A DNA stretch of 64,000 bases from Pelagerythrobacter marensis (lineage in GTDB: Bacteria > Pseudomonadota > Alphaproteobacteria > Sphingomonadales > Sphingomonadaceae). The stretch is from NCBI RefSeq assembly GCF_036700095.1, contig NZ_CP144918.1, positions 435,001 through 499,000 on the forward strand, given 5' to 3'. Below are positions 27,656 through 64,000 of the stretch, in pieces. The notes beneath the pieces were generated by a model. The model did no database searches. It saw nothing but the letters and a program-made list of their open reading frames with translations, and was not told the DNA's origin. The position numbers and the translations under genes are program-made. Position 1 is the stretch's first letter. Every line of letters starts with the position of its first letter.

Positions 27656-27844
27656 CTCCGCTCCGTCCGGTATATGGTTGTCCCGGGGATAGGCGCCGGG
27701 CCGAGCCACCCGGCACGGCCGGGTCCAGCGGATGCAAGTCGGCTATGAGCGAAATTCGGGAATAGCAACTGCATTTTTCGCAACTTCGTCCGCGGCATGC
27801 TCAATGGTCTCGCCCAGTATAAGCGATTGCACTAGGGTCGCGCG

Positions 27845-47953: not shown

Positions 47954-48092
47954 TCCTCCCCATCGCCTTGCGATGGGGAGGGGGACCGCGAGACGCGAAG
48001 CGGCTCGTGGTGGAGGGGCCTTTCCCGGCACAGCCCCTCCGACCGACGCCTGCGGCGTCGCCCACCTCCCCATCGCAAGACGATGGGGAGGA
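47954..48092 (-). repeat. 139-bp hairpin-ended repeat, copy 1
   Basis: Reverse-orientation copy of the TCCTCCCCATCG...CGATGGGGAGGA element. Each end is itself a hairpin (CCTCCCCATCG/CGATGGGGAGG), with an inner GACGCC/GGCGTC hairpin and a GGAGGGGC...GCCCCTCC arm pair. Full-length copies of the same size lie at 52072, 55808, 58010 and 61294. A GTCCCAGC/GCTGGGAC hairpin of another common family follows near 48110. The remainder of the divK-acp gap shows nothing else. Confidence 0.9.
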
Positions 48093-51364: not shown

Positions 51365-52002
51365 TAGTGCGTCGCTTCGATCGCGGCGGCGGCGCAGGGG
51401 TCTTGCCCCGTCTCGTCGCCGCCCGAGAGCCAGGACAGCGCGACGAAGCCGCCGACCACCAGCACCGCGAAGACTGTCGTGACAGTGGCCAGATATTCGT
51501 CGATCACCCGCTTGATCGGCGCGCCGAACAGGCGGAACAGCACGCCGACGGTCAGGAAGATCAGCGCCCGGCCCGCGATGCTGGCGAGGATGAACGGCAC
51601 CAGCGCCATTTCGATAAAGCCGGCGGTGATCGTCAGCAGCTTGAACGGCACCGGCGTGCTGCCGGCGAGGAAGATCACTTCCCAGTCGCGCTCGCGCAAA
51701 TGGCAGGCGGCGACGGGGAATTCCTCGACTAGGCCGATTGCGGACAGCATCGCCACGCCCAAAGTGTCGTAGAGGAAATACCCGATCGCATAGCCCAGCA
51801 GCCCGCCGAGAACCGAGGCGACCGTGCAGATCAGCGCGAAGCGAATCGCCTTCTTCGGTTCGGCCAGGCACATCAGGCCGAGCAGCGGGTGCGGCGGGAT
51901 CGGGAAGAAGCTGGATTCGATGAAGCTAATCAGCGCCAGCCACCCCTCGGCATGGGGGTGCGACGCCTTTTCCATCGTCCAGTCGTAAAGTCTGCGCAGC
52001 AT
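51364..52002 (-). CDS. YqaA/DedA-type (SNARE-associated) membrane protein
   Basis: 212 aa with about five hydrophobic segments. SFIESSFFPIPPHPLLGLM, LGGLLGYAIGYFLYDTLG and FLAGSTPVPFKLLTITAGFIEM match the YqaA/VTT-domain pattern; DedA-family proteins affect lipid flipping and membrane integrity. ATG at 52002. Confidence 0.88.
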   Translation of the reverse strand: MLRRLYDWTMEKASHPHAEGWLALISFIESSFFPIPPHPLLGLMCLAEPKKAIRFALICTVASVLGGLLGYAIGYFLYDTLGVAMLSAIGLVEEFPVAACHLRERDWEVIFLAGSTPVPFKLLTITAGFIEMALVPFILASIAGRALIFLTVGVLFRLFGAPIKRVIDEYLATVTTVFAVLVVGGFVALSWLSGGDETGQDPCAAAAIEATH

Positions 52003-52071
52003 CGCCGCGCCCTATGCCAGCGCCCCCGGCGGCGCAAGCGAGTCGCGCAGCGCCGGGCCCTCCTAACGTAG

Positions 52072-52210
52072 TCCTCCCCATCGTCTTGCGATGGGGAGGT
52101 GGGCGACGCCGCAGGCGTCGGTCGGAGGGGCGATGTCGCACAAGGCCCCTCCACCACGAGCCGCTTTGCGTCTCGCGGTCCCCCTCCCCATCGCAAGGCG
52201 ATGGGGAGGA
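52072..52210 (+). repeat. 139-bp hairpin-ended repeat, copy 2
   Basis: Same element and length as the copy at 47954, here in forward orientation, directly upstream of the GTA promoter region. Followed by ATTGAAACGA and a GCGAGTCCCC hairpin remnant (near 52221), which also follows copy 1. Confidence 0.9.
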
Positions 52211-52297
52211 TTGAAACGAGCGCGAGTCCCCGCGCAGGGGATCGGTGAGAGGGTCGGTCGGAGTCCTCTTAAAAATAACCTATTTGGAATTTTCTCC

Positions 52298-52326
52298 TTG
52301 ACATCGTGACGCTGTTTGGTTAGGAA
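52298..52326 (+). promoter_or_regulatory. candidate promoter of the GTA cluster
   Basis: TTGACA (52298-52303), exactly 17 bp, then TAGGAA (52321-52326), within an AT-rich patch (52270-52300) and about 90 bp before the first GTA gene. A CcrM-type GATTC site lies at 52348-52352. In Caulobacter, GTA transcription needs GafY/GafZ activators; whether this promoter does is unknown. Confidence 0.5.
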
Positions 52327-52414
52327 TACGGAACATCGCGATAGTGCGATTCGGCGAAAACCGCATCGCACCCGATCCACCCCTCCTCCCCCTTTTTCCC
52401 GAATGGAACCGATC

Positions 52415-52912
52415 ATGACCAAGGCGAACGCTTCGCCCGCTGGCGGCCGTGCGGCTGCGGGCAGGGCCTGGCGCAAGACATTCCTGGCGGAGCTTGCCCG
52501 CACGTCCAACGTATCGGCCGCCGCGCGCGAGGCGCAGGTCGACGTCAGCACCGTCTACCGCATCCGCCGCGCCGAGCCCGCCTTCGCGCGCCAGTGGTTC
52601 GAGGCGCTGTGCGAAGGTTACGACAATCTCGAGCTGGACCTGCTGTGCCGCCTGCGCGAAGGCGAGCTGGCGGGCACCACGACCCCCGCGGGCAAGGCGC
52701 GGCGCAAATTCGACAATGCGACCGCGTTCCGCCTGCTCGCCGCGCACCGGGCGAGCGTCCAGCGCGAGCGCGGCCGCAACGATTATGCCCACGAGGACGA
52801 GCTGCTCGCCTCGATCGACGCCAAGCTGGAGAAGATGCGCCAGCGGCGGATCGCCATGCGCGAAGCCGCCCGCGAGAACGCCCCGACCGAGGTTCCGGGC
52901 GATGGAGGATGA
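52415..52912 (+). CDS. GTA small terminase-like protein (g1 position)
   Basis: 165 aa. A helix-turn-helix-like segment (TSNVSAAAREAQVDVSTVYRIRRAEPAF) precedes charged helical sequence with TPAGKARRKFDNATAF. In Rhodobacter GTAs the first gene encodes the small terminase that initiates headful packaging. Start ATG at 52415 chosen over 52316; its stop overlaps the TerL start by 11 nt. Confidence 0.75.
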   Translation: MTKANASPAGGRAAAGRAWRKTFLAELARTSNVSAAAREAQVDVSTVYRIRRAEPAFARQWFEALCEGYDNLELDLLCRLREGELAGTTTPAGKARRKFDNATAFRLLAAHRASVQRERGRNDYAHEDELLASIDAKLEKMRQRRIAMREAARENAPTEVPGDGG

Positions 52913-54254
52913 ACCGCTCGACCCCAAGTTCGCGGAGCTGCTCGATCTCCCGGAAGACGAACGGCAGAAGGAACTCGCCAGGCTCACCGACGAGGAACGC
53001 AAGGAGCTGCGCCATCACTGGACCCTCTGGGCCCGGCGCGACCAGTTGCCGCCCGCCGGCGACTGGTCGGCCTGGCTGATCTGCGCCGGGCGCGGCTTCG
53101 GCAAGACCCGCGCGGGCGCCGAATGGGTGCGCGAAGTGGCCAAGCGCGAACCGGAAGCGCGGATCGCGCTGGTCGGCGCGAGCCTGGCCGAAGCGCGCGC
53201 GGTGATGGTCGAGGGCGAGAGCGGCATTCTCGCCTGCTCGCCGCCGCACCGCTGCCCGCTCTACGAACCCTCGTTGCGGCGGCTCACCTGGGCCAACGGG
53301 GCGCAGGCGACGCTCTATTCGGCGGCCGAGCCCGAGAGCCTGCGCGGGCCGCAGCACAGCCATGCCTGGTGCGACGAGATCGCCAAGTGGGACATGGCGG
53401 GCGAACGGGCGACGCGGGCGTGGGACAACCTCCTGCTCGGCCTCAGGCTGGGCGACCTGCCGCGCGTGCTGGCGACCACGACGCCGCGCCCGGTGCCGCT
53501 GGTCCACCGCCTGTTCGAAAGCGAGGCGAAGGGCGAAATCGCGGTGACGCGCGGCACGACCCACGCCAACCGGCCGAACCTGCCCGAACGGTTCGTCGAG
53601 GATATCGGCCGGCGCTTCGCCGGCACCAGCTTCGCCCGGCAGGAACTGGGCGGCGAGCTGCTGACCGACATCGACGGCGCGCTGTGGAGCCGGGCGCTCC
53701 TCGAACAATGCCGCGCCGAGGGGCCGGACGGCGATCCGGCGGCGCAGCCGGCACGCGTCGTGGTCGGGGTCGATCCCCCGGCCGGCGCGCGGGGCGATGC
53801 CTGCGGGATCGTGGTCGCCGGGCTTTGTCCGGCGGGCAAGGCGCTGGTGCTGGCCGACGCCTCGGTCGAAGGGGCCAGCCCCGAACGCTGGGCCCGCGCC
53901 GTGGCCGAGGCGGCGCGCGCATGGCAGGCCGACCGCGTGGTGGCCGAGGCGAACCAGGGCGGCGCGATGGTCGCCAGCGTGCTGCGCGCGGCGGAACTGA
54001 CCCTGCCGGTCCGGCTGGTCCACGCCAGCCGCGGCAAGGCGGCCCGCGCCGAACCGGTCGCCGCGCTCTACGAAGCGGGCCGCGTCCGCCACGCCGGCCT
54101 GTTCGCGCAGCTGGAGGACCAGATGTGCGGGCTGATGGCCGCGGGCCGCTACGAAGGCCCCGGCCGCAGCCCCGACCGCGCCGACGCCCTCGTCTGGGCG
54201 CTGACCGAACTGATGCTGGGCCGGCGGGCGCGGCCGCGGATCTCGCTGATTTGA
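52902..54254 (+). CDS. GTA large terminase (TerL, g2)
   Basis: 450-aa DNA-packaging ATPase/nuclease. Walker A GRGFGKTRAG is near residue 65, Walker B HAWCDEIAKW near 155, and nuclease acidic motifs VVGVDPPAG (~290), VVAEANQGGAM (~347) and SPDRADALVWAL (~422). In GTAs it packs pieces of host chromosome. Start ATG at 52902 overlaps g1. Full-length, catalytic residues intact. Confidence 0.95.
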   Translation: MEDEPLDPKFAELLDLPEDERQKELARLTDEERKELRHHWTLWARRDQLPPAGDWSAWLICAGRGFGKTRAGAEWVREVAKREPEARIALVGASLAEARAVMVEGESGILACSPPHRCPLYEPSLRRLTWANGAQATLYSAAEPESLRGPQHSHAWCDEIAKWDMAGERATRAWDNLLLGLRLGDLPRVLATTTPRPVPLVHRLFESEAKGEIAVTRGTTHANRPNLPERFVEDIGRRFAGTSFARQELGGELLTDIDGALWSRALLEQCRAEGPDGDPAAQPARVVVGVDPPAGARGDACGIVVAGLCPAGKALVLADASVEGASPERWARAVAEAARAWQADRVVAEANQGGAMVASVLRAAELTLPVRLVHASRGKAARAEPVAALYEAGRVRHAGLFAQLEDQMCGLMAAGRYEGPGRSPDRADALVWALTELMLGRRARPRISLI

Positions 54255-54266
54255 AATGTCGGGCGA

Positions 54267-54634
54267 GTCCCCGCGCAGGCGGGGACCTCAGGCCGCCGGC
54301 ACTCCGCCCGACAGCCTGAGGCCCCAGCCTTCGCTGGGGCTCGCCCTTCTCGATCCTCCCCATCGGCTCGCGATGGGGAGGGGGACCGCGAGACGCGCAA
54401 GCGGCTCGTGGTGGAGGGGCTGTGACGCTCCGCCCGACAGCCTGAGGCCCCGGCCTTCGCCGGGGCTCGCACTCCTTCTCGATCCTCCCCATCGTCTCGC
54501 GATGGGGAGGGGGACCGCGAGACGCGAAGCGGCTCGTGGTGGAGGGGCTGTGACGCTCCGCCCGACAGCCTGAGGCCCCGGCCTTCGCTGTGGCTCGCTC
54601 TTCTTCTCGATCCTCCCCACCGCGATGGGGAGGA
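54267..54634. repeat. tandem array (~127-bp units) between TerL and portal genes
   Basis: Begins with a GTCCCC/GGGGAC hairpin (54267-54286). Three unit starts (CTCCGCCCGACAGCC) lie at 54302, 54428 and 54556, so spacing is 126 and 128 bp; the third unit is truncated near 54634. Each unit combines an inverted GGCCCC...GGGGCTC hairpin with about 70 bp of one end of the 139-bp element in reverse orientation. No gene in the 405-bp gap. Confidence 0.85.
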
Positions 54635-54659
54635 TTTTCGCACTACGAAAGGTAACCTC

Positions 54660-55796
54660 ATGTCCTTCCTCTCCACCATCGCTTCCGCCTTCAAGGGCGG
54701 GGGCGGGGCTCGCGTGCCGCTGGCGCGCGGGTTCGTTTCGCCCTGGGCGCTCACTGCCGAAAGCGCCGGCGCGCCGCCTTACGAATATACGCGCAGCGTG
54801 CGGCGGGCCTATCTCGACAATCCGGTGGCGCAGCGCAGCGTGCGGCTGGTCGCCGAAGGGGTCGGCAGCGCGCCGATCCAGCCGGCCGACCCGGCGCTCG
54901 AGGCGCTTGTCGGCGCGACCAGTGCCGGGCAGGCGCTGGTCGAGACGGTCGCGGCGCACCTGCTGCTGCACGGCAATGCCTATGTCCAGGTGATGAAGGA
55001 CGCCGCCGGACAGCCGGTCGAGCTGTTCGCGCTCCGGCCCGAGCGGGTTTCGGTCGTGGCGGGGGAGGACGGCTGGCCCGCCGCCTATGCCTACAAGCTG
55101 GCCGAGCGGACGCTGACCATCCCGGTGGAGGACGAGGCGGGCTGGCCCAACCTGATCCACTTGCGCGGCTTCCACCCCGGCGACGATCACTACGGCGCCG
55201 GGGCGCTGGCGGCGGCCGAGCAGGCCGTGGCGATCCACAACGCCGCCTCCGCCTGGAACCGCGCGCTGCTGGAGAACGCGGCGCGGCCTTCGGGCGCGCT
55301 GGTGTTCGAAGGGGGCGACGGCGCCCCGCTGACAGGCGAGCAGTTCGACCGGCTGAAGGACGAGCTGGCCGCCGGGTTCCAGGGCCAGGTCAACGCCGGG
55401 CGGCCGATGCTGCTCGAAGGCGGGCTGAAGTGGCAGGCGATGGCCCATTCGCCGGCGGACATGGACTTCGCCGCGCTCAAGGCCGCCGCCGCGCGCGACA
55501 TCGCGCTCGCTTTCGGGGTTCCGCCGATGCTGCTCGGCCTGCCGGGCGACAACACTTATGCCAATTACCGCGAGGCGAACCGCGCGCTCTGGCGGCTGAC
55601 GCTGCTGCCGTTGGCGGGCAAGATCCTCGCCGGGCTGGCCGAAGGGCTGGCGCCGTGGTTTCCGAACGCCGCGCTGGCGGTCGATCTCGACCGGGTGCCC
55701 GCGCTGGCGGAGGATCGCGAGAAGCTGTGGGCGCAAGTGAGCGCCGCCGAGTTCCTCTCGGCCGAAGAGAAGCGCGCCCTGCTGGGCCTGGAATAA
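54660..55796 (+). CDS. GTA portal protein (HK97 family, g3)
   Basis: 378-aa portal vertex protein. SFLSTIASAFKGGG start, YDNPVAQRSV-like (LDNPVAQRSVRLVAEGV), ETVAAHLLLHGNAYVQ, and PPMLLGLPGDNTYANYREANRALWRLTLLPL are typical of HK97-type portals. Forms the DNA entry ring in the capsid. ATG at 54660 after AAAGGTAACCTC. Confidence 0.95.
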   Translation: MSFLSTIASAFKGGGGARVPLARGFVSPWALTAESAGAPPYEYTRSVRRAYLDNPVAQRSVRLVAEGVGSAPIQPADPALEALVGATSAGQALVETVAAHLLLHGNAYVQVMKDAAGQPVELFALRPERVSVVAGEDGWPAAYAYKLAERTLTIPVEDEAGWPNLIHLRGFHPGDDHYGAGALAAAEQAVAIHNAASAWNRALLENAARPSGALVFEGGDGAPLTGEQFDRLKDELAAGFQGQVNAGRPMLLEGGLKWQAMAHSPADMDFAALKAAAARDIALAFGVPPMLLGLPGDNTYANYREANRALWRLTLLPLAGKILAGLAEGLAPWFPNAALAVDLDRVPALAEDREKLWAQVSAAEFLSAEEKRALLGLE

Positions 55797-55807
55797 TACG
55801 AGAAAGA

Positions 55808-55946
55808 TCCTCCCCATCGTCTTGCGATGGGGAGGTGGCGCCCGCCGCAGGCGGGTGACGGAGGGGCGATGTTGCACAGGGCCCCTCCACCACGAGCCGC
55901 TTCGCGTCTCGCGGTCCCCCTCCCCATCGCAAGGCGATGGGGAGGA
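55808..55946 (+). repeat. 139-bp hairpin-ended repeat, copy 3
   Basis: Forward copy in the short gap between portal and the DUF6127-like gene; inner hairpin here is CCCGCC/GGCGGG rather than the GACGCC/GGCGTC of copies 1 and 2. Ends 23 bp before the next start codon. Confidence 0.9.
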
Positions 55947-55969
55947 CTGAAGAGAAGGACACCGATCCC

Positions 55970-56278
55970 ATGGACAGAACCGACATGATCGCCCGGCTGA
56001 TGGCCGAGGCGAAGGATCGCGGCTGCGAGCTGGTGACGCTGCGCGCGATCGTCGAGGAAGCGACCGACCTCGGCGCCGACCGCGCGCTCCAGCGCACCGG
56101 CCTCGCCGATCCCGATGCGCGCGAGGATCTCGCCGAGCTGCGCGAGCTGCTCCAGGCCTGGCGCGATGCCAAGGCGAGCGCCTGGCGCGCGGCAATCGCC
56201 TGGCTGGTGCGCGGGGCGCTGGCGCTGCTGCTGATCGGCATTGCCGTGCGGCTGGGCCTCGCCGGGGCGCTGCGGTGA
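55970..56278 (+). CDS. DUF6127-like GTA cluster protein (g3.5 position)
   Basis: 102 aa. Helical, charged N-terminal part (DRTDMIARLMAEAKDRGCELVTLRAIVEEATDLGADRALQRTGL) and one C-terminal membrane segment (LVRGALALLLIGIAVRLGLAGAL). Occurs between portal and protease in sphingomonad GTA clusters; role unknown. Stop overlaps the next start (GTGA). Confidence 0.75.
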   Translation: MDRTDMIARLMAEAKDRGCELVTLRAIVEEATDLGADRALQRTGLADPDAREDLAELRELLQAWRDAKASAWRAAIAWLVRGALALLLIGIAVRLGLAGALR

Positions 56279-56679
56279 TGCGCCTCGCCGGATATGCCGC
56301 GCTGTTCGGCCGGGCCGACGCGGCGCGCGACACGATCCGCCCCGGCGCTTTCGCCCGCACGCTGGCCGAGCGCCAGGCCGCGTCGCTCGGCCCGCTGCCG
56401 CTTTTCTGGCAGCACCGGCCCGGCCAGCGGATCGGCTGGATCGAACGGATCGCGGAGGACGCGCGCGGCCTGCGCGTGATCGCCGCGCTCGACAACCCCG
56501 CCGGGCGCGCGGCCGCCCTCCTCCGCCGCCGCGCGGTCAGCGGCCTCAGCTTCGGCTACCGCGCCCGCCGGTTCCGCCGCACCCCCGAAGGCCGCGTGCT
56601 GGAGGATGTGGAGCTGTTCGAGGTGAGCCTCGTGACGCATCCGCTCCAGCACGGCGCGCGGGTGTTTTTGGTTGTTTAG
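56275..56679 (+). CDS. GTA prohead protease (HK97 family, g4)
   Basis: 134 aa. RLAGYAALFGRADAARDTIRPGAFARTLAE, LFWQHRPGQRIG (catalytic His), and AVSGLSFGYRARR with the catalytic Ser context, then VELFEVSLVTHPLQHGA. Short for the family but contains the catalytic core. Start GTG at 56275 or ATG at 56278. Confidence 0.92.
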   Translation: MMRLAGYAALFGRADAARDTIRPGAFARTLAERQAASLGPLPLFWQHRPGQRIGWIERIAEDARGLRVIAALDNPAGRAAALLRRRAVSGLSFGYRARRFRRTPEGRVLEDVELFEVSLVTHPLQHGARVFLVV

Positions 56680-56812
56680 CCTCAAGCGCCGGCGGCCGCA
56701 TCCGCGGCCTTGGCTATCCCGCCCATAATTTCGTGAGTCCCAGCGAAGGCTGGGACTTCGTGCCACCGGCGCTTCGCCAGTGTCTCCTGAAGCCCCTGCC
56801 TCCGCAGGGGCT
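56679..56812. repeat. mixed repeats between protease and capsid genes
   Basis: Three pieces: an inverted fragment (56679-56718) of the 80-bp repeat found at 58203 and 61525, beginning at the protease stop codon; a GTCCCAGC/GCTGGGAC hairpin (56737-56756); and an AGCCCCTGC/GCAGGGGCT hairpin (56791-56812). No gene in the gap. Confidence 0.7.
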
Positions 56813-56854
56813 CATACAAATTTACCACCACCCCCCAAAGAAAGGTGAATACCC

Positions 56855-57997
56855 ATGGATACCGCTACCCCCACCACCCCCGCCGATCTGCTGGAGGAAA
56901 GCTTCGACCTCCTCGCCCGGCAGGAGAAGACCGAGACCGAAGTCGCCGCGCTGCGCAGCGATGTCGACGAAGTGAAGGCGCGCGTCGACCGGATCGGCAA
57001 GGCCGCCGCGCGGCCCGCGCTCGCGCCGGCCGGCGACAGCCCCGAAGTGAAAGGCTTCGTCGAAGGCTATCTGCGGCGCGGCTCGACGGCGGAGGTCAAG
57101 TCGCTCTCCACCGGCGTGCCGGCCGACGGCGGCTATGCCGTCCCGCGCGAGATCGACGCCGCGATCGCCCGCGAACTGACCGCGATCAGCCCGATCCGCG
57201 GCATCGCGCAAGTCGTGCAGACCGGCAGCAGCGGCTATCGCAAGCTCGTCAGCACCGGCGGCACCGCCTCGGGCTGGGTCAGCGAGACGACCGCGCGGCC
57301 CGAAACCGACACCCCGCAATTTGCCGAGATCGCCCCGCCGACCGGCGAGCTTTACGCCAACCCGGCGGCGAGCCAGGCGATGCTCGACGATACCGCGTTC
57401 GATGTCGAAGCCTGGCTGGCGAGCGAGATCGGGCAGGAATTCGCCCGCGCCGAAGGGGCCGCCTTCGTCAACGGCAGCGGCGCCGACCAGCCGCGAGGTT
57501 TCCTCGCCGGGCCGAACACCGCCGCCAACGACGGCGCGCGCGCGTTCGGCACGCTGCAATATATCGGCAGCGGCGATGCCGCGGGGCTGGGCAGCGAGCC
57601 CGACCTGACGCTGATCGTCCTCGTCCACACGCTGAAGGCCGGATACCGCCAGGGCGCGAGCTTCGTGATGAACTCGTCCACGCTGGCCGAAGTGCGCAAG
57701 CTCAAGACCGCCGACGGCGCGTTCCTGTGGCAGCCGGGGCTGGTCGAGGGGCAGCCGGACCGGCTGCTCGGCTATCCGGTGGTCGAGGCGCAGGACATGC
57801 CCGATATCGGCGCGGGTGCCTGCCCGATCGCCTTCGGCAACTTCCGCGCCGGATACCTGATCGCGGAACGCAGCGCCACGCAGATCCTGCGCGATCCCTT
57901 CACCAACAAGCCCTTCGTCCACTTCTACGCGACCAAGCGCGTGGGCGGGCAAGTGCTCGATTCGAACGCGATCAAGCTGCTGAAGGTCGAAGCGTAG
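56855..57997 (+). CDS. GTA major capsid protein (HK97 family, g5)
   Basis: 380 aa. N-terminal helical delta domain (~15-50, coiled-coil-like), then a likely cleavage region (~60-75) and the HK97 fold with STGVPADGGYAVPREIDAAIARELTAISPIR, NGSGADQPRGFLAG and the C-terminal RDPFTNKPFVHFYATKRVGGQVLDSNAIKLLKV. The neighbouring protease would remove the delta domain. Confidence 0.96.
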   Translation: MDTATPTTPADLLEESFDLLARQEKTETEVAALRSDVDEVKARVDRIGKAAARPALAPAGDSPEVKGFVEGYLRRGSTAEVKSLSTGVPADGGYAVPREIDAAIARELTAISPIRGIAQVVQTGSSGYRKLVSTGGTASGWVSETTARPETDTPQFAEIAPPTGELYANPAASQAMLDDTAFDVEAWLASEIGQEFARAEGAAFVNGSGADQPRGFLAGPNTAANDGARAFGTLQYIGSGDAAGLGSEPDLTLIVLVHTLKAGYRQGASFVMNSSTLAEVRKLKTADGAFLWQPGLVEGQPDRLLGYPVVEAQDMPDIGAGACPIAFGNFRAGYLIAERSATQILRDPFTNKPFVHFYATKRVGGQVLDSNAIKLLKVEA

Positions 57998-58009
57998 CGG
58001 GGGCGCATT

Positions 58010-58148
58010 TCCTCCCCATCGTCTCGCGATGGGGAGGTGGCGCCCGCCGCAGGCGGGTGACGGAGGGGCTGTGCCGGGAAAGGCCCCTCCACCACGAGCC
58101 GCTTCGCGTCTCGCGGTCCCCCTCCCCATCGCAAGGCGATGGGGAGGA
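58010..58148 (+). repeat. 139-bp hairpin-ended repeat, copy 4
   Basis: Forward copy beginning 13 bp after the capsid stop codon. Inner hairpin CCCGCC/GGCGGG and central TGTGCCGGGAAAGG match the copy at 61294 most closely. Confidence 0.9.
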
Positions 58149-58202
58149 TTGGATCGAAACTCTCGACAGTGGCCGGGAAAGGTCCGGTCCGCGACCAGCG
58201 GA

Positions 58203-58282
58203 CCGCAAGCGCGACCGCGCGCCCGGAGCGCTCTGCGCGGAGGACAGCCAAGGCCGCGGACGCGGCCGCCGGCGCCTGAGGC
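58203..58282 (+). repeat. 80-bp repeat, copy A
   Basis: Starts CCGCAAGCGCGACCGCGCGC and ends CGCCTGAGGC; near-identical and of equal length to 61525-61604. Each lies about 55-90 bp after a 139-bp element and 23-25 bp before the next GTA start codon, so the whole block (139-bp element plus 80-bp repeat) is duplicated. A partial inverted copy is at 56679. Confidence 0.85.
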
Positions 58283-58306
58283 AAACAGGAAAGAAAGGAA
58301 CCCCGC

Positions 58307-58858
58307 ATGAAGCGGACCATATTGACGCCGCCGGACTTTACCGGCGGCGCGCTGGCCGATGTCAAGCAATGGCTGGCAATCGCCACCCCCGCGCACGACG
58401 ATGCGCTGGCCGGGTTGATCGGCGCCGCGGCAGAGGCTTGCGAGGCCTTTACCGGCACGCTGCCGCTGGAGGCGACGTGCGAGGACGTGTTGCCCGCCAG
58501 CCGCGAATGGCAGGTGCTCGACGCGCGGCCGGTCAACGCGATCCTGGCGGTCGAGGGCATTCCGGCCGAAGGGCCGCGCTTCGCCCTGCCCGCGCAGGAT
58601 TACGCACTCGCGCTGGACCCCGACGGATCGGGCCGCGTGCGGGTGATGCGCCCGGGCGCCGCGGGCCGGATCGCGGTGCGCTATCTCGCCGGCTATGCCC
58701 CCGAATGGGCCGCGCTGCCCGACACCCTGCGCCACGGGATCGTGCGCCTCGCGGCCGAGCTGTTCCGCGCGCAGGACGGCGGCGGGGAGAGGGCGCGCAT
58801 CCTGCCCGCCGCCGTCGCCGCGCTGTGGCATCCCTGGCGCCGGACCCGGCTGATATGA
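58307..58858 (+). CDS. GTA head-tail connector (g6)
   Basis: 183 aa. VKQWLAIATPAHDDALAGLIGAAAEACEAFTG at the N-terminus and LRHGIVRLAAELFRAQDGGG toward the C-terminus match the phage head-tail connector (gp6/phiE125 gp8-like) family that binds beneath the portal. ATG at 58307 after AAAGAAAGGAA. Confidence 0.88.
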   Translation: MKRTILTPPDFTGGALADVKQWLAIATPAHDDALAGLIGAAAEACEAFTGTLPLEATCEDVLPASREWQVLDARPVNAILAVEGIPAEGPRFALPAQDYALALDPDGSGRVRVMRPGAAGRIAVRYLAGYAPEWAALPDTLRHGIVRLAAELFRAQDGGGERARILPAAVAALWHPWRRTRLI

Positions 58859-59025
58859 TCGCCGCCCGCACCCGCCGCTCGCACGCTGCATTCGCCGCCG
58901 CCCTCGCACGCAAGGCCGCCCGCCTTGCCCGGGCGCGGGCGGAAGCGGCGCTGCGCGCGCGCAAGGACGACCCCGGCCGCTGGCGCGATCCGCGCCTGCT
59001 CTGGCCCCTGTTCACGAAGGATTGA
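58855..59025 (+). CDS. small basic ORF in the stopper (g7) position
   Basis: 56 aa, overlapping the connector stop (ATGA) and ending 3 bp before the tail-terminator start. Sequence is Arg/Ala-rich (RRSHAAFAAALARKAARLARARAEAALRARK) and ends WRDPRLLWPLF. In Rhodobacter GTA a ~110-aa head-closure protein sits here; this ORF shows no similarity I can see. Tight coupling argues that it is translated. Confidence 0.55.
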   Translation: MIAARTRRSHAAFAAALARKAARLARARAEAALRARKDDPGRWRDPRLLWPLFTKD

Positions 59026-59028
59026 GCG

Positions 59029-59421
59029 ATGGAACATGCCCTGCGCGCCGCGCTGATCGACTGGCTGCGCGCCGCCCCCGCCCCGCTGAACGCGCTGAAC
59101 GCCGTGGAGGAGGAAACGCCCTTGCGCACCGCCCCGCCCTGGCTCGGCATCGCCGCCAGCGCGAGCGCCGACTGGAGCACCAAGGATCGCAAGGGCCGCG
59201 AGATCCGCCTGGCGCTGGAACTGCACACGCGCGGCGACGATCCGGCTGCCGACGGCGCGCTGGTCGCCGCGATCGACCGGCGAGTGGAGGACCTGCCGCC
59301 CCGGCAGCCGGCGTTCGCGATCGCCTCGACCCGGTTCCTGCGCGCCCGCGCAGAGCGCCGCGCGAACAACCGCCGCAGCATGTTGCTGGAATACCGGTTC
59401 CGCTGCCTCGCGAACGCCTGA
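59029..59421 (+). CDS. GTA tail terminator, DUF3168 family (g8)
   Basis: 130 aa. EHALRAALIDWLRAAPAPLNALNAV, TPPWLGI-like, WSTKDRKGREIRLALELHTRGDD and MLLEYRFRCL match DUF3168, the tail-completion/terminator family. ATG at 59029. Confidence 0.9.
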   Translation: MEHALRAALIDWLRAAPAPLNALNAVEEETPLRTAPPWLGIAASASADWSTKDRKGREIRLALELHTRGDDPAADGALVAAIDRRVEDLPPRQPAFAIASTRFLRARAERRANNRRSMLLEYRFRCLANA

Positions 59422-59430
59422 CCTACCCGA

Positions 59431-59503
59431 GCCCCTGCGCAGGCAGGGGCCTCCCACCATCTCGCGTCGCGCCAGCGGCACGAGACCCCTGCCTACGCAG
59501 GGG
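59431..59503. repeat. two CCCCTGC hairpins between g8 and g9
   Basis: GCCCCTGC/GCAGGGGC (59431-59450) and CCCCTGC/GCAGGGG (59486-59503), of the same family as the hairpin at 56791. They occupy the 103-bp gap before the tail protein gene. Confidence 0.7.
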
Positions 59504-59524
59504 ATCAGCTCTGGAGTAATCTTC

Positions 59525-59932
59525 ATGACCGCCCAGAAAGGCTCCGCCTTCCTTCTCAAGATCGGCGATGGCGGACAGCCGCCCGCCTACACCACCGTCG
59601 CCGGCCTGCGCACGACGCAGATGTCGGTCAACGGCGATACCGTCGTCGTCACGCACAAGCAGAGCGGCGGCTGGCGCGAGTTGCTGTCGGGCGCAGGAAC
59701 GCGTTCGGTCTCGGTCTCGGCCAGCGGCATCTTCCTCGCCAGCGAGGCCGAGGCCGCGATCCGCACGCACGCGCTGGCCGGAACGATCGACGATTACGAA
59801 CTGTCGTTCGAAGGCGGCGAGCGGCTGCGCGGCCGCTTCCTGGTCCAGCGGCTCGACTATGCCGGCGATTTCAACGGCGAGCGGACATATACGCTGCAGC
59901 TCGAAAGCTCGGGCGCGGTGGTGCCGGCATGA
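59525..59932 (+). CDS. GTA major tail protein (TP901-1 family, g9)
   Basis: 135 aa. QKGSAFLLKIGDGG, RTTQMSVNGDTVVVTHKQSGGWRELLSGAGTRSVSVSASGIF and DFNGERTYTLQLESSG match the TP901-1 tail tube family. Builds the tail tube. Stop overlaps the g10 start (ATGA). Confidence 0.92.
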   Translation: MTAQKGSAFLLKIGDGGQPPAYTTVAGLRTTQMSVNGDTVVVTHKQSGGWRELLSGAGTRSVSVSASGIFLASEAEAAIRTHALAGTIDDYELSFEGGERLRGRFLVQRLDYAGDFNGERTYTLQLESSGAVVPA

Positions 59933-60258
59933 GCGGGCGCGCGACGGAGGCCCCCGCCAACCCGCACAGGGGCGAAGCGAGTCTGGTCGTCGCCGGCCAG
60001 CCGCGCGTCCTTCGGCCGAGCTTTTCCGCCCTGGTCGCGGCCGAGGAAGACCTCGGCCCGCTGTTCGCGCTGGTCGAGCGCGCGGGCGAAGGGCGGCTGG
60101 CGCTGTCGGAGATGGCCGCGCTGTTCTGGCACTGCCTCGCCGATCGCGGCGAGGTGACGCGCGAGCAGGTCGGCGACGCGGTCATGGCGCACGGCCTCGC
60201 CGCCTGCGCCCGGCCGCTGCGCGTGCTGCTCGGCCAGATCCTCCAGGGATCGGGTTAG
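59929..60258 (+). CDS. GTA family protein (g10)
   Basis: 109 aa. NPHRGEASLVVAGQPRVLRPSFSALVAAEEDLGPLFALVERAGEGRLALSEMAALFWHCL is the GTA g10-family pattern, related to tail-assembly proteins. Translationally coupled to g9. Confidence 0.88.
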   Translation: MSGRATEAPANPHRGEASLVVAGQPRVLRPSFSALVAAEEDLGPLFALVERAGEGRLALSEMAALFWHCLADRGEVTREQVGDAVMAHGLAACARPLRVLLGQILQGSG

Positions 60259-60663
60259 ATGGGCACGACCCACCCCTCCCCCCTGCGGGAGGGGCGCGAG
60301 ACCTGGCGGCGCGCGGCGACGCCCGGTCGCAGCGGGGTGGGCTTCTGCGAGGCGGGGCAGAGCATCGGGCCCACCCCCGACCCCTCCCGCAAGCGGGAGG
60401 GGGGATTGTCGTTCGGCCCCTCCTCCCGCCACGCGCCTTCGCGAGCACATGGGGTGGGGGGGCTGTCGTTCGGCGCCGCCGCTCTCTCGCTCGCCGCGCT
60501 CGCCGCGCGGGCGCTCGGGTGGCGGCCCGACGAATTCTGGCGCGCCACTCCGGCGGAGCTGGCTGCCTGCCTCGCCGACCCCGCCGGCCCGCCCACACCC
60601 GCCGCGCCTTCCCGGGCCGAAATCGAACGCATGATGGAGCGCGAGAACGATGGACGAGATTGA
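60259..60663 (+). CDS. GTA tail assembly chaperone (g10.1) with a repeat-derived N-terminal extension
   Basis: 134 aa as an open frame from the ATG at 60259, immediately after the g10 stop. Only the last ~70 residues (LSFGAAALSLAALAARALGWRPDEFWRATPAEL...) match the rcc01693/tail-chaperone family, which is normally about this size. The first ~65 residues are encoded by palindromic repeat DNA (60273-60402) in frame. Translation might instead begin at GTG 60454. Stop overlaps the tape-measure start by 14 nt. Confidence 0.75.
   Translation: MGTTHPSPLREGRETWRRAATPGRSGVGFCEAGQSIGPTPDPSRKREGGLSFGPSSRHAPSRAHGVGGLSFGAAALSLAALAARALGWRPDEFWRATPAELAACLADPAGPPTPAAPSRAEIERMMERENDGRD
60273..60402. repeat. 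CCCCTCCC palindromes within the tail chaperone gene
   Basis: Hairpins CCCCTCC/GGAGGGG (60273-60296) and CCCCTCCCGC/GCGGGAGGGG (60381-60402). An 11-bp direct repeat TGTCGTTCGGC follows at 60407-60417 and again at 60464-60474, in the same frame, so the inserted stretch keeps the reading frame open. Confidence 0.75.
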
Positions 60664-61210
60664 CGAACTTCTGATCGAGGTGCGCGCGGGCACGCAAGGC
60701 TTCGCGCAGGATATCGCGCAGATGCGCGGGACGTTCGACGCCACGCTGGTCGAAGGGTTTCGCGATGCCGGATCGGTCCTCGAACGCGGGCTGCTTTCGG
60801 CGATCCGCCGGGGCAGCCTGGGGTTCGACGACCTCAAGCGCGTGGCGCTGGGCGCGATCGACCAGATCGCCGCCCATTCGCTGAAACTCGGGTTCGACGA
60901 ACTGTTCGGCGGCCTTGGCGGCGGAAGCGGCGGGCTGCTGGGCGGCCTCGTCGGCGCGCTGTTCGGCCTGCCCGGCCGCGCGACCGGCGGCCCCGTCTCG
61001 CCCGGACGCGGCTACCTCGTCGGCGAGCGCGGGCCGGAACTGTTCGTGCCGACCAGCGCCGGGCGGGTCGAACCTTCGCTCGCCCCCGCACCCGCGCGCG
61101 AGGTGCGCGTTTCGATCGCCCTCGCCGCCCCGCGCGGCACCGACGCGCCGGTCGCGCTGCAACGCTCGAGCCGCCAGGTCGCGAGCGCGGTGCGGCGGGC
61201 GTTGCTGTAG
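60650..61210 (+). CDS. GTA short tape measure protein (g11)
   Basis: 186 aa. Helical start with FAQDIAQMRGTFDATL, Gly-rich centre, and the diagnostic C-terminal ATGGPVSPGRGYLVGERGPELFVP of tail tape-measure proteins. GTA tape measures are short, matching a short tail. ATG at 60650 overlaps the previous gene. Confidence 0.9.
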   Translation: MDEIDELLIEVRAGTQGFAQDIAQMRGTFDATLVEGFRDAGSVLERGLLSAIRRGSLGFDDLKRVALGAIDQIAAHSLKLGFDELFGGLGGGSGGLLGGLVGALFGLPGRATGGPVSPGRGYLVGERGPELFVPTSAGRVEPSLAPAPAREVRVSIALAAPRGTDAPVALQRSSRQVASAVRRALL

Positions 61211-61247
61211 CCCCCCGTGACCACCCGCGAAGCGCCAGCGGCCTGAG

Positions 61248-61267
61248 GCCCCCGCCTTCGCGGGGGC
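61248..61267. repeat. GCCCCCG/CGGGGGC hairpin
   Basis: 20-bp hairpin of the family also seen at 54320-54350 and 54450-54470, between the tape-measure gene and the 139-bp element. Confidence 0.65.
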
Positions 61268-61293
61268 TCGCGCTCTTTTCGAACCCTGCTCGA

Positions 61294-61432
61294 TCCTCCC
61301 CATCGCAAGGCGATGGGGAGGTGGCGCCCGCCGCAGGCGGGTGACGGAGGGGCTGTGCCGGGAAAGGCCCCTCCACCACGAGCCGCTTCGCGTCTCGCGG
61401 TCCCCCTCCCCATCGCAAGGCGATGGGGAGGA
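61294..61432 (+). repeat. 139-bp hairpin-ended repeat, copy 5
   Basis: Forward copy in the 417-bp gap between g11 and g12; both its end hairpins read CCTCCCCATCGCAAGGCGATGGGGAGG. Followed after ~92 bp by copy B of the 80-bp repeat. Confidence 0.9.
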
Positions 61433-61524
61433 TTGGAAAGCGTTGGACCGTCCCCAGCGTTTGAGGGTTCGGACAAGCCGGTTCCGGTCCGCGCCCCGGT
61501 CCGCGCAGCGGGCCGCGCGGCGGG

Positions 61525-61604
61525 CCGCAAGCGCGACCGCGCGCCCGGAGCGCTCTGCGCGAAGGATAGCCAAGGGGCCGGATGGCCCCGCCGGCGCTTG
61601 AGGC
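61525..61604 (+). repeat. 80-bp repeat, copy B
   Basis: Matches 58203-58282 from CCGCAAGCGCGACCGCGCGC to the GAGGC end, differing mainly in the inner hairpin (GGGGCCGG/CCCCGCC here). Ends 23 bp before the g12 start codon. Confidence 0.85.
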
Positions 61605-61627
61605 CAAACAAAAAAGGATACAAAACA

Positions 61628-63952
61628 ATGCCCTACTGGCTTGCCCGCGAATGGCGCGGGCAGGACCGCGACTGGATCCAGCGGTTCGATCCGCGGTTCT
61701 GGACGGTCGATTTCCCCCGCCCGATGATGGCCTGCATCGTCGCCACCGCGCCCGATGCGCTGCGGGTCGATTGCGAGTTTCTCTACCGGGGCCAGCTCGC
61801 CGGGCTGATCTGGGCGAGCGAGGACCGGCTCGACCATCCGCTGCTCGCCTATGAAACCCGGCGCGACTATTCGCATACCGTCCTGCGCTTCCGCTGGCGG
61901 TCGAGCGGGATCGTCGCGCTCGACCGGGCCAATGGGCCGACCCTGACGATCGAGGGGCGCGACGCGGCAGGCGAGGCGCGCAGCTGGTATGTCCGGCTGT
62001 GGAACTACGCCCGCGGCAGCCCCACCGACGCGCATGTCGAACTGCCCTTCTCCGCGCTCGAAAGCGGGTGGTCGCTGCCCGGCGAGCCGGTCCACCCGGC
62101 CGATATCGACCGCATGTTCGTCTCGCTGGTGCCCGAAGGCTATGTCCCGGGCAGCGACGCGACGCTGCCGGCACGGGCGGAAGGCCATGCCGAGCTGAGC
62201 GAAATCGCCTGCCACGGCGACCACGCGACGCTGGCGATCGGCGATGTCATGCTGCCCCCGCACGGGGAGCGGATCGCGACCGCCTACGACGATGCCTACA
62301 ACCAGGAACCGACCCGGCTGCTGCGCAATATCCGCGGGCTCGGCTATCGCGACCGGGTCCTGCACTATCTGGGGATGAGCCACTTCCCCCGGTTGCGGGC
62401 GGAAGGCGGAGCGATGCCGGTCGCGCGGCCGGCGGCGATCTGCACGCCCGCGCGCCGCTGGCACGAATGCTTCTACGCTGCGGCGCAGGCGGCGGGCTAT
62501 GCGGTTATCAACTCGCTTTCCTACGAGCTGCTGGCCGACCATTGCCCCGCCGAGTGGCAGCAACGCGCGCACGACGGCAGCGCGGCGCGCACCGGGTGGG
62601 ACCCGCCCTCCGCGCTGCTTTCGCCGGCCAATGGCAAGGCGATGGCCTGGCTGCAATCGGCGGCGGTGCAGTTCACCGCGATGCAGCAGGCGGCCGGGCT
62701 GCCGGTGCTGTTCCAGGTGGGCGAGCCGTGGTGGTGGGTCGTGCCCCACAGCGGCGCGCCCTGCCTTTACGACGCTGCCGCATCGGCGGCCTTCGGCGGA
62801 TCGCCGCCGGTCATCGCCGACATGCGCGCGCCGCTCGACAGCGCGCAGACCGCGCTGCTCGACGAGGCAGGCGCGCTGCTGGCGCAATCGACCGCGGCGC
62901 TGGGGCAGGCGGTGCGGGATGCGGCGGGGGGCGCGGCGGAGATTCTGCTGCTCGCCTTCACCCCGACGATCCTCGATCCCGCCATGCCCGAATTGAAACG
63001 CGCGAACCTGCCGACAGGCTGGGCCTGGCCGGCCTTCGACCGGCTCCAGCTCGAAGACTACGACTGGCTAACCGCGGGCTTCGACGCGCGCTGCCGGGCG
63101 GCGATCGCCGAAGTCGACGCGCGGCTCGGCTATCCGGTCGAGCGGCAGGACTACCTGTCGGGCTTCGTGCTCGACCCCGCCGATGCCGAAGCGTTCTGGG
63201 CGCGGATCGACGCCGCGCTCGACCGGGCCGCGGCGCGCGGGGTCGGCCAGCGATATGTCTGGGCGCTGCCGCAGGTGGCGCGCGACGGATACACGCGGCT
63301 CGCGCCGCCGAAGGAGGACGACGTGCAGGCTTTCGACGACGTGCAATATCCGCTCGCGCCGGGGCGCGACGCGGCGGTCAGCCCCGAATTCTCGACCGCG
63401 ATCGCGGTCACCGCCTCGGGGCACGAGCGGCGCAACACGCTCTGGTCCGACGCGCGGCTGCGGTTCGATGTCGGGCCGGGGATCCGGTCCGAAGAGGAGC
63501 TGGGCACGCTGATCGCCTTCTTCCGCGCGCGGCGCGGGGCGGCGCGCGGGTTTCGCCTGTGCGATCCGTTCGACTTCAGCTCGAACGGCATGACCGGCCC
63601 GCCCGGCCCGCTCGACCAGCCGCTCGGCACCGGCGACGGTGCGCGCGACAGCTTCGCGCTGGTCAAGGCCTATGGCGACGGGGCCGAGCCGCAGTTGCGC
63701 CCGATCACCCGCCCGCGCGAGGGCACCGTGCGCGTCTCGGTCGGCGGGGCGGAGACTTTCGCCTGGACGCTGGCCCCCGGCGGGCGCATCCGGTTCGTCG
63801 AGGCGCCGCCCGCGGGGGCGGAGATCCGCGCCGGGTTCCTGTTCGACGTGCCGGTGCGCTTCGCGCAGGACCGGCTCGACGTGACCGGCGCGAACTTCGC
63901 CGCCGGCGAGGCGCCCTCGGTGCCGCTGATCGAAATCCGCGAGGCGACATGA
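61628..63952 (+). CDS. GTA distal tail protein: ~560-aa N-terminal region fused to DUF2460 (g12)
   Basis: 774 aa. Residues ~565-774 (ASGHERRNTLWSDARLRFDVGPGIRSEEEL, FRARRGAARGFRLCDPFDF, ending LIEIREAT) are a complete DUF2460/GTA g12 domain, which alone is about 210 aa in Rhodobacter GTA. The N-terminal ~560 residues (MPYWLAREWRGQDRDWIQRFDPRFWTVDFPRP..., LFQVGEPWWWVVPHSG) have a barrel- or glycosidase-like look but no family I can name; a host-surface or tail-sheath role is possible. ATG at 61628. Confidence 0.82.
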   Translation: MPYWLAREWRGQDRDWIQRFDPRFWTVDFPRPMMACIVATAPDALRVDCEFLYRGQLAGLIWASEDRLDHPLLAYETRRDYSHTVLRFRWRSSGIVALDRANGPTLTIEGRDAAGEARSWYVRLWNYARGSPTDAHVELPFSALESGWSLPGEPVHPADIDRMFVSLVPEGYVPGSDATLPARAEGHAELSEIACHGDHATLAIGDVMLPPHGERIATAYDDAYNQEPTRLLRNIRGLGYRDRVLHYLGMSHFPRLRAEGGAMPVARPAAICTPARRWHECFYAAAQAAGYAVINSLSYELLADHCPAEWQQRAHDGSAARTGWDPPSALLSPANGKAMAWLQSAAVQFTAMQQAAGLPVLFQVGEPWWWVVPHSGAPCLYDAAASAAFGGSPPVIADMRAPLDSAQTALLDEAGALLAQSTAALGQAVRDAAGGAAEILLLAFTPTILDPAMPELKRANLPTGWAWPAFDRLQLEDYDWLTAGFDARCRAAIAEVDARLGYPVERQDYLSGFVLDPADAEAFWARIDAALDRAAARGVGQRYVWALPQVARDGYTRLAPPKEDDVQAFDDVQYPLAPGRDAAVSPEFSTAIAVTASGHERRNTLWSDARLRFDVGPGIRSEEELGTLIAFFRARRGAARGFRLCDPFDFSSNGMTGPPGPLDQPLGTGDGARDSFALVKAYGDGAEPQLRPITRPREGTVRVSVGGAETFAWTLAPGGRIRFVEAPPAGAEIRAGFLFDVPVRFAQDRLDVTGANFAAGEAPSVPLIEIREAT

Positions 63953-64000
63953 GCCGGGCGTTCCTTGCGCGCGAGCTGGACACGGTCGCGACCTTCTGGC
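63949..64000 (+). CDS. GTA baseplate-hub gene, DUF2163-like (g13), start only
   Basis: Only 17 codons are visible (MSRAFLARELDTVATFW), beginning at an ATG overlapping the g12 stop (ATGA). The LARELDTVAT start and position after DUF2460 match DUF2163/g13. The gene continues beyond the window. Confidence 0.6.
   Translation, partial: MSRAFLARELDTVATFW

Follow-up and report, generated by a model that had tools for sequence, protein, structure and literature searches.

The window analysed here, a 64,000-nt stretch of the Pelagerythrobacter marensis genome, contains near its right-hand end a gene transfer agent (GTA) cluster of the RcGTA type, which runs from terS to the start of g13. GTAs are domesticated viruses that carry host DNA from cell to cell. 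An earlier note, made from the letters alone, had proposed a gene order from TerS to DUF2163, and matches to Pfam and PHROG profiles bear this out:

52415-52912, forward strand: terS (g1), matched by PHROG 4044 only
52902-54254, forward strand: TerL (g2), Terminase_6N/6C
54660-55796, forward strand: portal (g3), family match
55937-56278, forward strand: DUF6127 protein (g3.5), start codon as called, overlapping the end of a REPIN-like element by a few nucleotides
56275-56679, forward strand: prohead protease (g4), Peptidase_S78
56855-57997, forward strand: major capsid protein (g5), Phage_capsid
58307-58858, forward strand: head-tail connector (g6), Pfam score just below the cut-off, PHROG head-tail adaptor
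58855-59025, forward strand: g7-like ORF of 56 aa, with positional relatives in part of the loci and no family match in Pfam or PHROG
59029-59421, forward strand: tail terminator (g8), Tail_completion_gp17, PF11367
59525-59932, forward strand: major tail protein (g9), Phage_tail_2
59929-60258, forward strand: g10, GTA-gp10
60406-60663, forward strand: tail assembly chaperone (g10.1), family match, start codon uncertain
60650-61210, forward strand: short tape measure protein (g11), 186 aa, PHROG match only
61628-63952, forward strand: g12, 774 aa, NCTSP_N, TIM barrel and DUF2460
63949-64000, forward strand: first 52 nt of g13, which runs on to window-equivalent position 64764

Past 64 kb, where the earlier note had suggested looking for g13-g15, all three are present and open: the rest of g13 is followed by g14 (NlpC/P60), g15 (Rcc01698-like) and a DUF2793 gene, and then by OmpA and Cu/Zn SOD. 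Window and adjoining sequence together give a complete head-tail set, g1-g15, in order. GTAs have their lysis and head-spike genes at other places in the genome.

The suggestion that the cluster is functional rather than decayed is supported by these open later genes and by dN/dS values of 0.07-0.41 in every comparison (15 genes against P. rhizovicinus, 13 against the congener G002 and nine against P. marinus), although particle production would be a prediction from sequence. The locus shares its upstream chromosomal neighbour with most others, 71 of 77 loci in all having it. Neither an integrase nor a phage regulator, either of which beyond the right edge would have told against a GTA, was found in the ten flanking ORFs scanned (out of 22 called), nor was there a tRNA in the window or in flanking sequences L009 and L010. 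From the open frames, the dN/dS values and the shared neighbour, it is very probable that the cluster is a maintained RcGTA-type GTA rather than a prophage. Decay does occur in the genus, P. marinus being without the genes from capsid through tape measure, but a decaying prophage remnant is a most improbable description of a locus in which all frames are open and under purifying selection, the chromosomal position is shared and the promoter is conserved; with the scanned flanks free of integrase, it was rejected.

The larger result, to our minds, concerns the promoter. The TTGACA-17-TAGGAA sequence that had been proposed to precede the cluster was located exactly, and it proves to be part of a 56-nt module conserved across 73 aligned loci:

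52276-52290, forward strand: conserved TAACC-N5-GGT element 5' of the -35, recognised from column information, its right half degenerate here
52298-52326, forward strand: GTA promoter, with TTGACA (-35), a 17-nt conserved spacer and TAGGAA (-10), recognised from sequence and conservation
52330-52353, forward strand: conserved GGAACATCGCGATAGTGCGATTCG at and after the presumed start (placed from the -10), with a GANTC (CcrM) site at 52348-52352

Mean information over the 56 columns is 1.25 bits, against 0.24 directly downstream, in the 73 loci, and this conservation shows that the match is not due to chance. The motif was present in 37 of 79 genomes of the family, the reversed pattern giving no matches, and all 29 of the non-own promoter sites that were fetched (out of 37) adjoin GTA genes; the core has two further copies in the P. 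marensis genome (0 and 1 mismatch), neither of them at GTA genes. A ready-made sigma-70 scan of 52001-64000 called no promoter, because it requires a final T, which TAGGAA does not have. The element at 52298 is almost certainly the promoter of the GTA cluster, with the transcription start of the operon presumably at the place indicated by the -10.

The promoter may also be a target of mobile DNA. In six relatives, an IS1595-type transposon ends in the -10 region of the GTA promoter; four of these six insertions are complete, with 8-bp duplications, and in four of five readable cases the transposase lies directly behind the promoter. Some promoters seemed to form a class of their own, in which the upstream half was exchanged, but transposon insertion accounts for them. 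Plasmid relatives of the transposase comprised 37 records, one at 60-80% identity and 36 below 60%. Should the targeting be borne out, a mobile element has come to recognise GTA promoters, which would be a new link between GTAs and transposons.

How might such a promoter be controlled? A search of the genome for GafA, GafY and GafZ homologues had been suggested. A homologue of GafZ (DUF6456, the C-terminal domain of GafA) is encoded at C1:2360423-2360806 beside a LexA-like gene, whereas no fused GafA was detected in the genome and no GafY (DnaA domain IV-like) was found by the one Pfam model used, PF08299, which matches only dnaA in this genome and has two or more matches in 19 of 143 genomes of the class. 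DUF6456 occurs in all 37 motif-bearing genomes versus 32 of the 42 others (Fisher 0.0013, or 0.043 if fragmentary genes are scored as absent). The LexA-like gene, whose model matches LexA, adjoins DUF6456 in 31 of 31 loci examined, and the model of the GafZ-like protein gives a weak fold match (best E 1.0) to sigma region 4, as of a sigma-like HTH. Within the module, distances in the spacer and in the first-transcribed sequence (ITS) correlate, with a partial r of 0.75 given TerL distance (n=72, 0/2000 permutations); eight divergent promoters account for much of this, the correlation being 0.47 within the 64 main-class loci (0/1000 permutations). A partial r of 0.37 links the spacer to the upstream element as well. 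We lean towards the idea that GafZ acts at the spacer and ITS.

A different reading puts the promoter chiefly under cell-cycle regulators, with TAACC-N5-GGT as a CtrA-type site and the GANTC as a GcrA/CcrM site, and gives GafZ a minor part. The upstream element does resemble what we take to be a CtrA site. In 58 of the 73 loci GANTC stands at a single offset, the background being 0.0012 per base, and the site fits YGAKTCR in 55 of 73, so that a conserved motif of the YGAKTCK type lies near the promoter; PMC7987155 gives YGAKTCK as the GcrA motif and describes a prophage-like 26-gene operon of Brevundimonas that depends on GcrA. A reader of GANTC alone would, however, leave unexplained the conservation and co-variation of the spacer and of the sequence that leads up to GANTC, and 15 of the 73 loci have no GANTC at that offset, so we regard control mainly by the cell cycle as rather unlikely. 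According to PMC9836097, whether the GTA cluster is tied to CtrA and to methylation by CcrM had, to its authors' knowledge, not been investigated.

The gaps between the GTA genes are packed with hairpin-forming repeats, on which the earlier note is silent (no strand is assigned to these):

52073-52209: REPIN-like element of two inverted 27-nt REP palindromes, just 5' of the GTA promoter
54255-54659: terL-portal gap, three direct repeats of about 127 nt with REP palindromes (dG -244 kcal/mol, z -6.7), the last hairpin followed by ATTTTC
55809-55945: REPIN-like element, portal-g3.5 gap
56680-56854: protease-capsid gap, other palindromic repeats (z -5.7)
58011-58147: REPIN-like element, capsid-g6 gap; after it comes an 88-nt repeat also present in the tape measure-g12 gap
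59422-59524: g8-g9 gap, palindromic repeats (z -5.8)
60259-60453: g10-g10.1 gap, a second repeat family, also represented at other places in the genome (z -2.0)
61295-61431: REPIN-like element, tape measure-g12 gap

Of the genome's 20 REP palindromes, ten are found within the cluster or immediately ahead of it (0.11 expected). A RAYT behind the repeats was set aside, as the genome has no match to Y1_Tnp (PF01797). The notion that REPs avoid codirectional gaps elsewhere, and so must be polar, was likewise unsupported: by crude gene calls, 42 palindrome elements in six genomes (a set including three of the five sites of G001, none of the four of G006 and part of the 22 in G005) comprised 23 codirectional, 11 convergent and three divergent ones and five inside called ORFs, so the palindromes are not barred from possible operons outside the cluster.

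Are these repeats stops, or only passengers? Insertions of REP type could be spread from gap to gap by gene conversion and be tolerated because the operon is rarely transcribed, or because polymerase ignores the hairpins. One composite repeat occupies two gaps here and, with its REPIN part in the opposite orientation, the same two in P. rhizovicinus, a pattern suggestive of concerted evolution; the terL-portal gap of relatives also receives unrelated cargo genes; and canonical terminators are few. Nearly all the palindromes are without T-tails, and a scan of 52001-64000 gave six terminator sites against 4.9 in shuffles, with a single REP, on the minus strand, among them, so that canonical intrinsic terminators at REPs are unsupported. 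Against neutrality, z was -5 or lower in six of the seven cluster gaps and in four of 31 control codirectional gaps elsewhere in the genome, strong structure being commoner in the cluster though not confined to it. In Pelagerythrobacter, structured palindromes occupy mostly the same gaps in four clusters (those of this genome, P. rhizovicinus, G002 and G006). The palindromes that congeners carry in most of these gaps differ in orientation or family; G002, intact to g13 over the extent fetched, has no perfect REP and other palindromes in most gaps. That the same gaps are structured while family and orientation change looks like retention of structure. On balance, neutral passengers come close to an even chance, and a role for the gap repeats as terminators is a tentative suggestion.

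We would give a probability of about 0.6 to the explanation as a whole, that of a maintained GTA read from 52298, with GafZ loaded at the promoter and passing structured stops. The operon would be transcribed from the promoter at 52298, which, having a consensus -35, should fire without a recruiter of the GafY type; conserved spacer and ITS would load the GafZ homologue onto RNA polymerase, and GafZ would carry the polymerase past structured stops. In some relatives the stop may be a leader terminator: 16 of 79 leaders have one, against a shuffle mean of 3.65 from counts that do not extend to stricter energies. The window's own leader, with 63 of the 79, has none by the same test, and in Pelagerythrobacter the stops would be the hairpin-forming repeats between genes. 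The adjoining LexA-like gene may keep gafZ off, and GANTC suggests an added CcrM/GcrA input from the cell cycle. There is a precedent in C. crescentus, where three repeats of 150 bp lie behind the first GTA gene and GafZ reads through them (PMC11150451). Antitermination by GafZ in the manner of lambda Q is, for the present cluster, an unproven reading, against which stand the T-tail-less palindromes and the terminator-free leader of the window. It is conceivable, if doubtful, that the GTAs of the family embody a stripped-down lambda-Q logic, in which a sigma-70 promoter that fires constantly and bears a CcrM mark dispenses with GafY, GafZ is loaded there as sole antiterminator, the hairpin stops are replaceable and the promoter is a dedicated IS1595 landing site.

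Since GTAs kill the producing cell, control is the core question of their biology, and to our knowledge few species have been studied in detail in this respect. With its co-varying parts and its partner gene, a promoter module characteristic of GTA clusters offers a direct test of GafZ loading and of cell-cycle input in another order, and the gap repeats, at constant positions, supply a naturally occurring set of candidate stops. In a literature search confined to titles and the openings of abstracts, we found no publication combining GTA with REPIN, and the promoter module and its transposons are apparently undescribed.

Like REPINs, the elements in the gaps pair inverted REP palindromes, whose starts are 110 nt apart, and are dispersed in intergenic gaps, but they differ in being concentrated in one cluster of a genome in which no RAYT was found. 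With RcGTA of Rhodobacter capsulatus the cluster has in common gene order and families from g1 to g15 and a homologue of the GafA C-terminal domain, without a detectable fused GafA; we take the N-terminal NCTSP/TIM-barrel region of g12 and the DUF6127 and DUF2793 genes to be further differences from RcGTA. The control of CcGTA in Caulobacter crescentus (GafY, GafZ, IHF, RogA and terGTA) is likened here by its published description. Both have a GafZ homologue and a conserved element between -10 and -35; the LexA-like gene resembles the published description of RogA, and the GC-rich direct repeats of about 127 nt, with inverted repeats, inside the cluster recall those described for terGTA. In P. 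marensis, however, the -35 is a consensus TTGACA instead of a degenerate one, GafY is undetected by PF08299, the LexA-like gene adjoins gafZ, and the repeats lie after terL and in later gaps, whereas those of C. crescentus follow the first gene.

The gene content of the cluster is that of an ordinary GTA; its control region is unusual and testable. The RcGTA-type gene order claimed in the earlier note was confirmed by Pfam and PHROGs, and the later genes sought beyond the window edge, g13, g14 and g15, were found together with a DUF2793 gene. The cluster starts within the window (G000:C1:435001-499000, in a genome of 2.91 Mb), has its 3' end at the equivalent of window 67856, and is followed by genes for OmpA and a Cu/Zn SOD. 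Upstream, on the opposite strand, is a gene for a VTT-domain (DedA-like) protein, a neighbour common to 71 of 77 eligible loci (own locus counted); of the six loci lacking it, five have a transposon in the promoter, and the sixth is L090. All comparisons of GTA genes gave dN/dS of 0.07-0.41 (15 genes against P. rhizovicinus, 13 of these against the congener G002, whose g14 and g15 were outside the fetched part, and nine against P. marinus). In P. marinus (L013/L107) the cluster is without the capsid-to-tape-measure stretch, protease and g12 being joined by repeat-rich sequence, and the promoter is retained. Elsewhere in the window, Rfam matches to suhB (mmgR; 2205-2281) and sul1 (27676-27729) lie on the minus strand.

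The promoter was compared between the own locus and the best 80 of 398 loci by TerL similarity. TTG is present at -35 in 74 of the 81 loci with TerL, the seven others being six transposon insertions and L034. Over the 73 loci alignable in this region (L032 was dropped, having too little upstream sequence), mean information is 0.69 bits in 32 upstream columns, 1.25 in a 56-nt module and 0.24 directly downstream. In order, the conserved parts are an upstream TAACC-N5-GGT, the -35 TTGACA, a spacer of 17 nt that contains CGTSACGCT, a -10 resembling TANANA, GGAACATCGCGATA and GANTC, the last at a constant offset in 58 of 73 loci. A 26-nt core (three or fewer mismatches) occurs at 40 places in 37 of 79 family genomes (three in the own genome, two in G067 and one in each of the others), and the reversed pattern at none in the same 79. 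All 29 non-own sites that were fetched are directly upstream of GTA genes (27 of terS, two of cluster remnants, as at L124 and L136, where a remnant and not terS follows the module); eight more non-own places lie outside this fetched set. The two extra copies in the own genome, C1:2274452 (L103:4452) and C1:1641059 (L104:5059), with 0 and 1 core mismatch, both have GANTC and are away from any GTA gene: one is antisense to a Mur-ligase-like gene, and one is between NasS-like and porin-like genes in a nitrate-assimilation-like locus (all named by eye).

Four complete transposons, of 2865-3841 nt, are inserted in the GTA promoter of relatives.

Complete IS1595-family transposons in the GTA promoter
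L030:5620-9460, complete IS1595-family transposon
L039:6515-9379, complete IS1595-family transposon
L068:4979-8490, complete IS1595-family transposon
L085:6062-9377, complete IS1595-family transposon

The four complete elements carry identical 8-bp duplications, which lie over the -10 region and start 23-24 nt past the first T of TTGACA. L047 and L059 have one transposon end each; L059 has a transposase in the other orientation, and none was found on the short contig of L047. Pfam recognized DDE_Tnp_IS1595 in all four transposases tested, and the four are mutually 69-84% identical. Among the loci fetched by that stage (GTA-centred loci and a few others), the transposase was restricted to the four complete-element loci and L059. 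In four of the five cases that could be read, it runs codirectionally with the GTA promoter, its start being some 66 nt in from the left end. Among the passenger genes are those for SLFN_AlbA_2, DUF3800 and, with a match at the cut-off, NYN proteins.

A hairpin with a T-run at -9 kcal/mol or below was present in 16 of 79 leaders, compared with a mean of 3.65 and a maximum of 6 over 20 shuffle rounds; 15 leaders were at -17.8 or below, the shuffle counts referring to the -9 kcal/mol level, and the start of the L085 leader is misplaced owing to its transposon. A stricter terminator scan gave 5 against 0.18. The window's own leader has no such hairpin with a T-run.

Of 18 genome copies of the palindrome CCTCCCCATCG-N-CGATGGGGAGG, 10 are within or directly before the GTA cluster; two more are 4 kb upstream, with a REPIN-like element (two inverted REPs) at window 47955-48091. 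A looser pattern places 10 of 20 copies of the own genome in or at the cluster, and in P. rhizovicinus it does so for 10 of 34 copies (0.11 and 0.18 expected if placed randomly); counted by element the figure is 5 of 13 (P 6e-9), such P-values being too small because repeats are copied locally. Among 16 aligned copies, 10 of 52 pairs had changed on both sides. All five own sites are occupied in P. rhizovicinus, three in opposite orientation (two elements judged by eye). In the own cluster, six of seven gaps longer than 60 nt reach z -5, compared with four of 31 codirectional control gaps delimited with crude gene calls. Four of six gaps in G002 and three of five in a second congener, G006, have z of -5 or lower, mostly with palindromes that, judged by eye, belong to different families; a portal-g3.5 gap is missing from G006, and its pre-g12 gap is just 48 nt. 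The terL-portal gap in relatives (L022, L031, L041, L060, L070, L079, L081 and others) houses cargo ORFs that frequently lie on the other strand, including toxin-antitoxin-like and membrane-protein ORFs (named by eye).

As for regulators, the GafA/GafZ homologue that the earlier note proposed to seek is represented by a single match to DUF6456, the annotation of GafA homologues in PMC9638019 and PMC9765227. DUF6456 was found in 69 of 79 family genomes, including all 37 with the motif (Fisher 0.0013, or 0.043 with the fragmentary cases, G037, G066 and G081, scored absent). A LexA-like gene adjoins it in 31 of 31 loci (own and the 30 best-scoring), 29 of them scored by script as divergent; the own locus and L156 have the same arrangement, with overlapping ends. 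The modelled LexA-like product (pLDDT 91) matches LexA with a best E of 1.4e-5, at a TM of only 0.42. The GafZ-like model (pLDDT 76) weakly resembles sigma region-4 domains (best E 1.0), and a sequence search of this protein against solved structures gave no match. When GafY was sought in the own genome by PF08299, dnaA was the sole match; PF08299 gives two or more matches in 19 of 143 class genomes, and one match also in two other same-family genomes of that set.

The spacer varies with the first-transcribed sequence (partial r 0.75 given TerL distance; 72 loci; 0 of 2000 permutations), and it correlates less strongly (0.37) with the upstream element. Among the 64 main-class loci only, the spacer/first-transcribed correlation is 0.47 (0 of 1000 permutations). 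A single protein reading both would be the simple explanation. In C. crescentus, according to PMC11150451, a putative GafZ element is located in the same -35/-10 spacer, and the LexA-like gene agrees, by description, with RogA as presented in PMC9632790.
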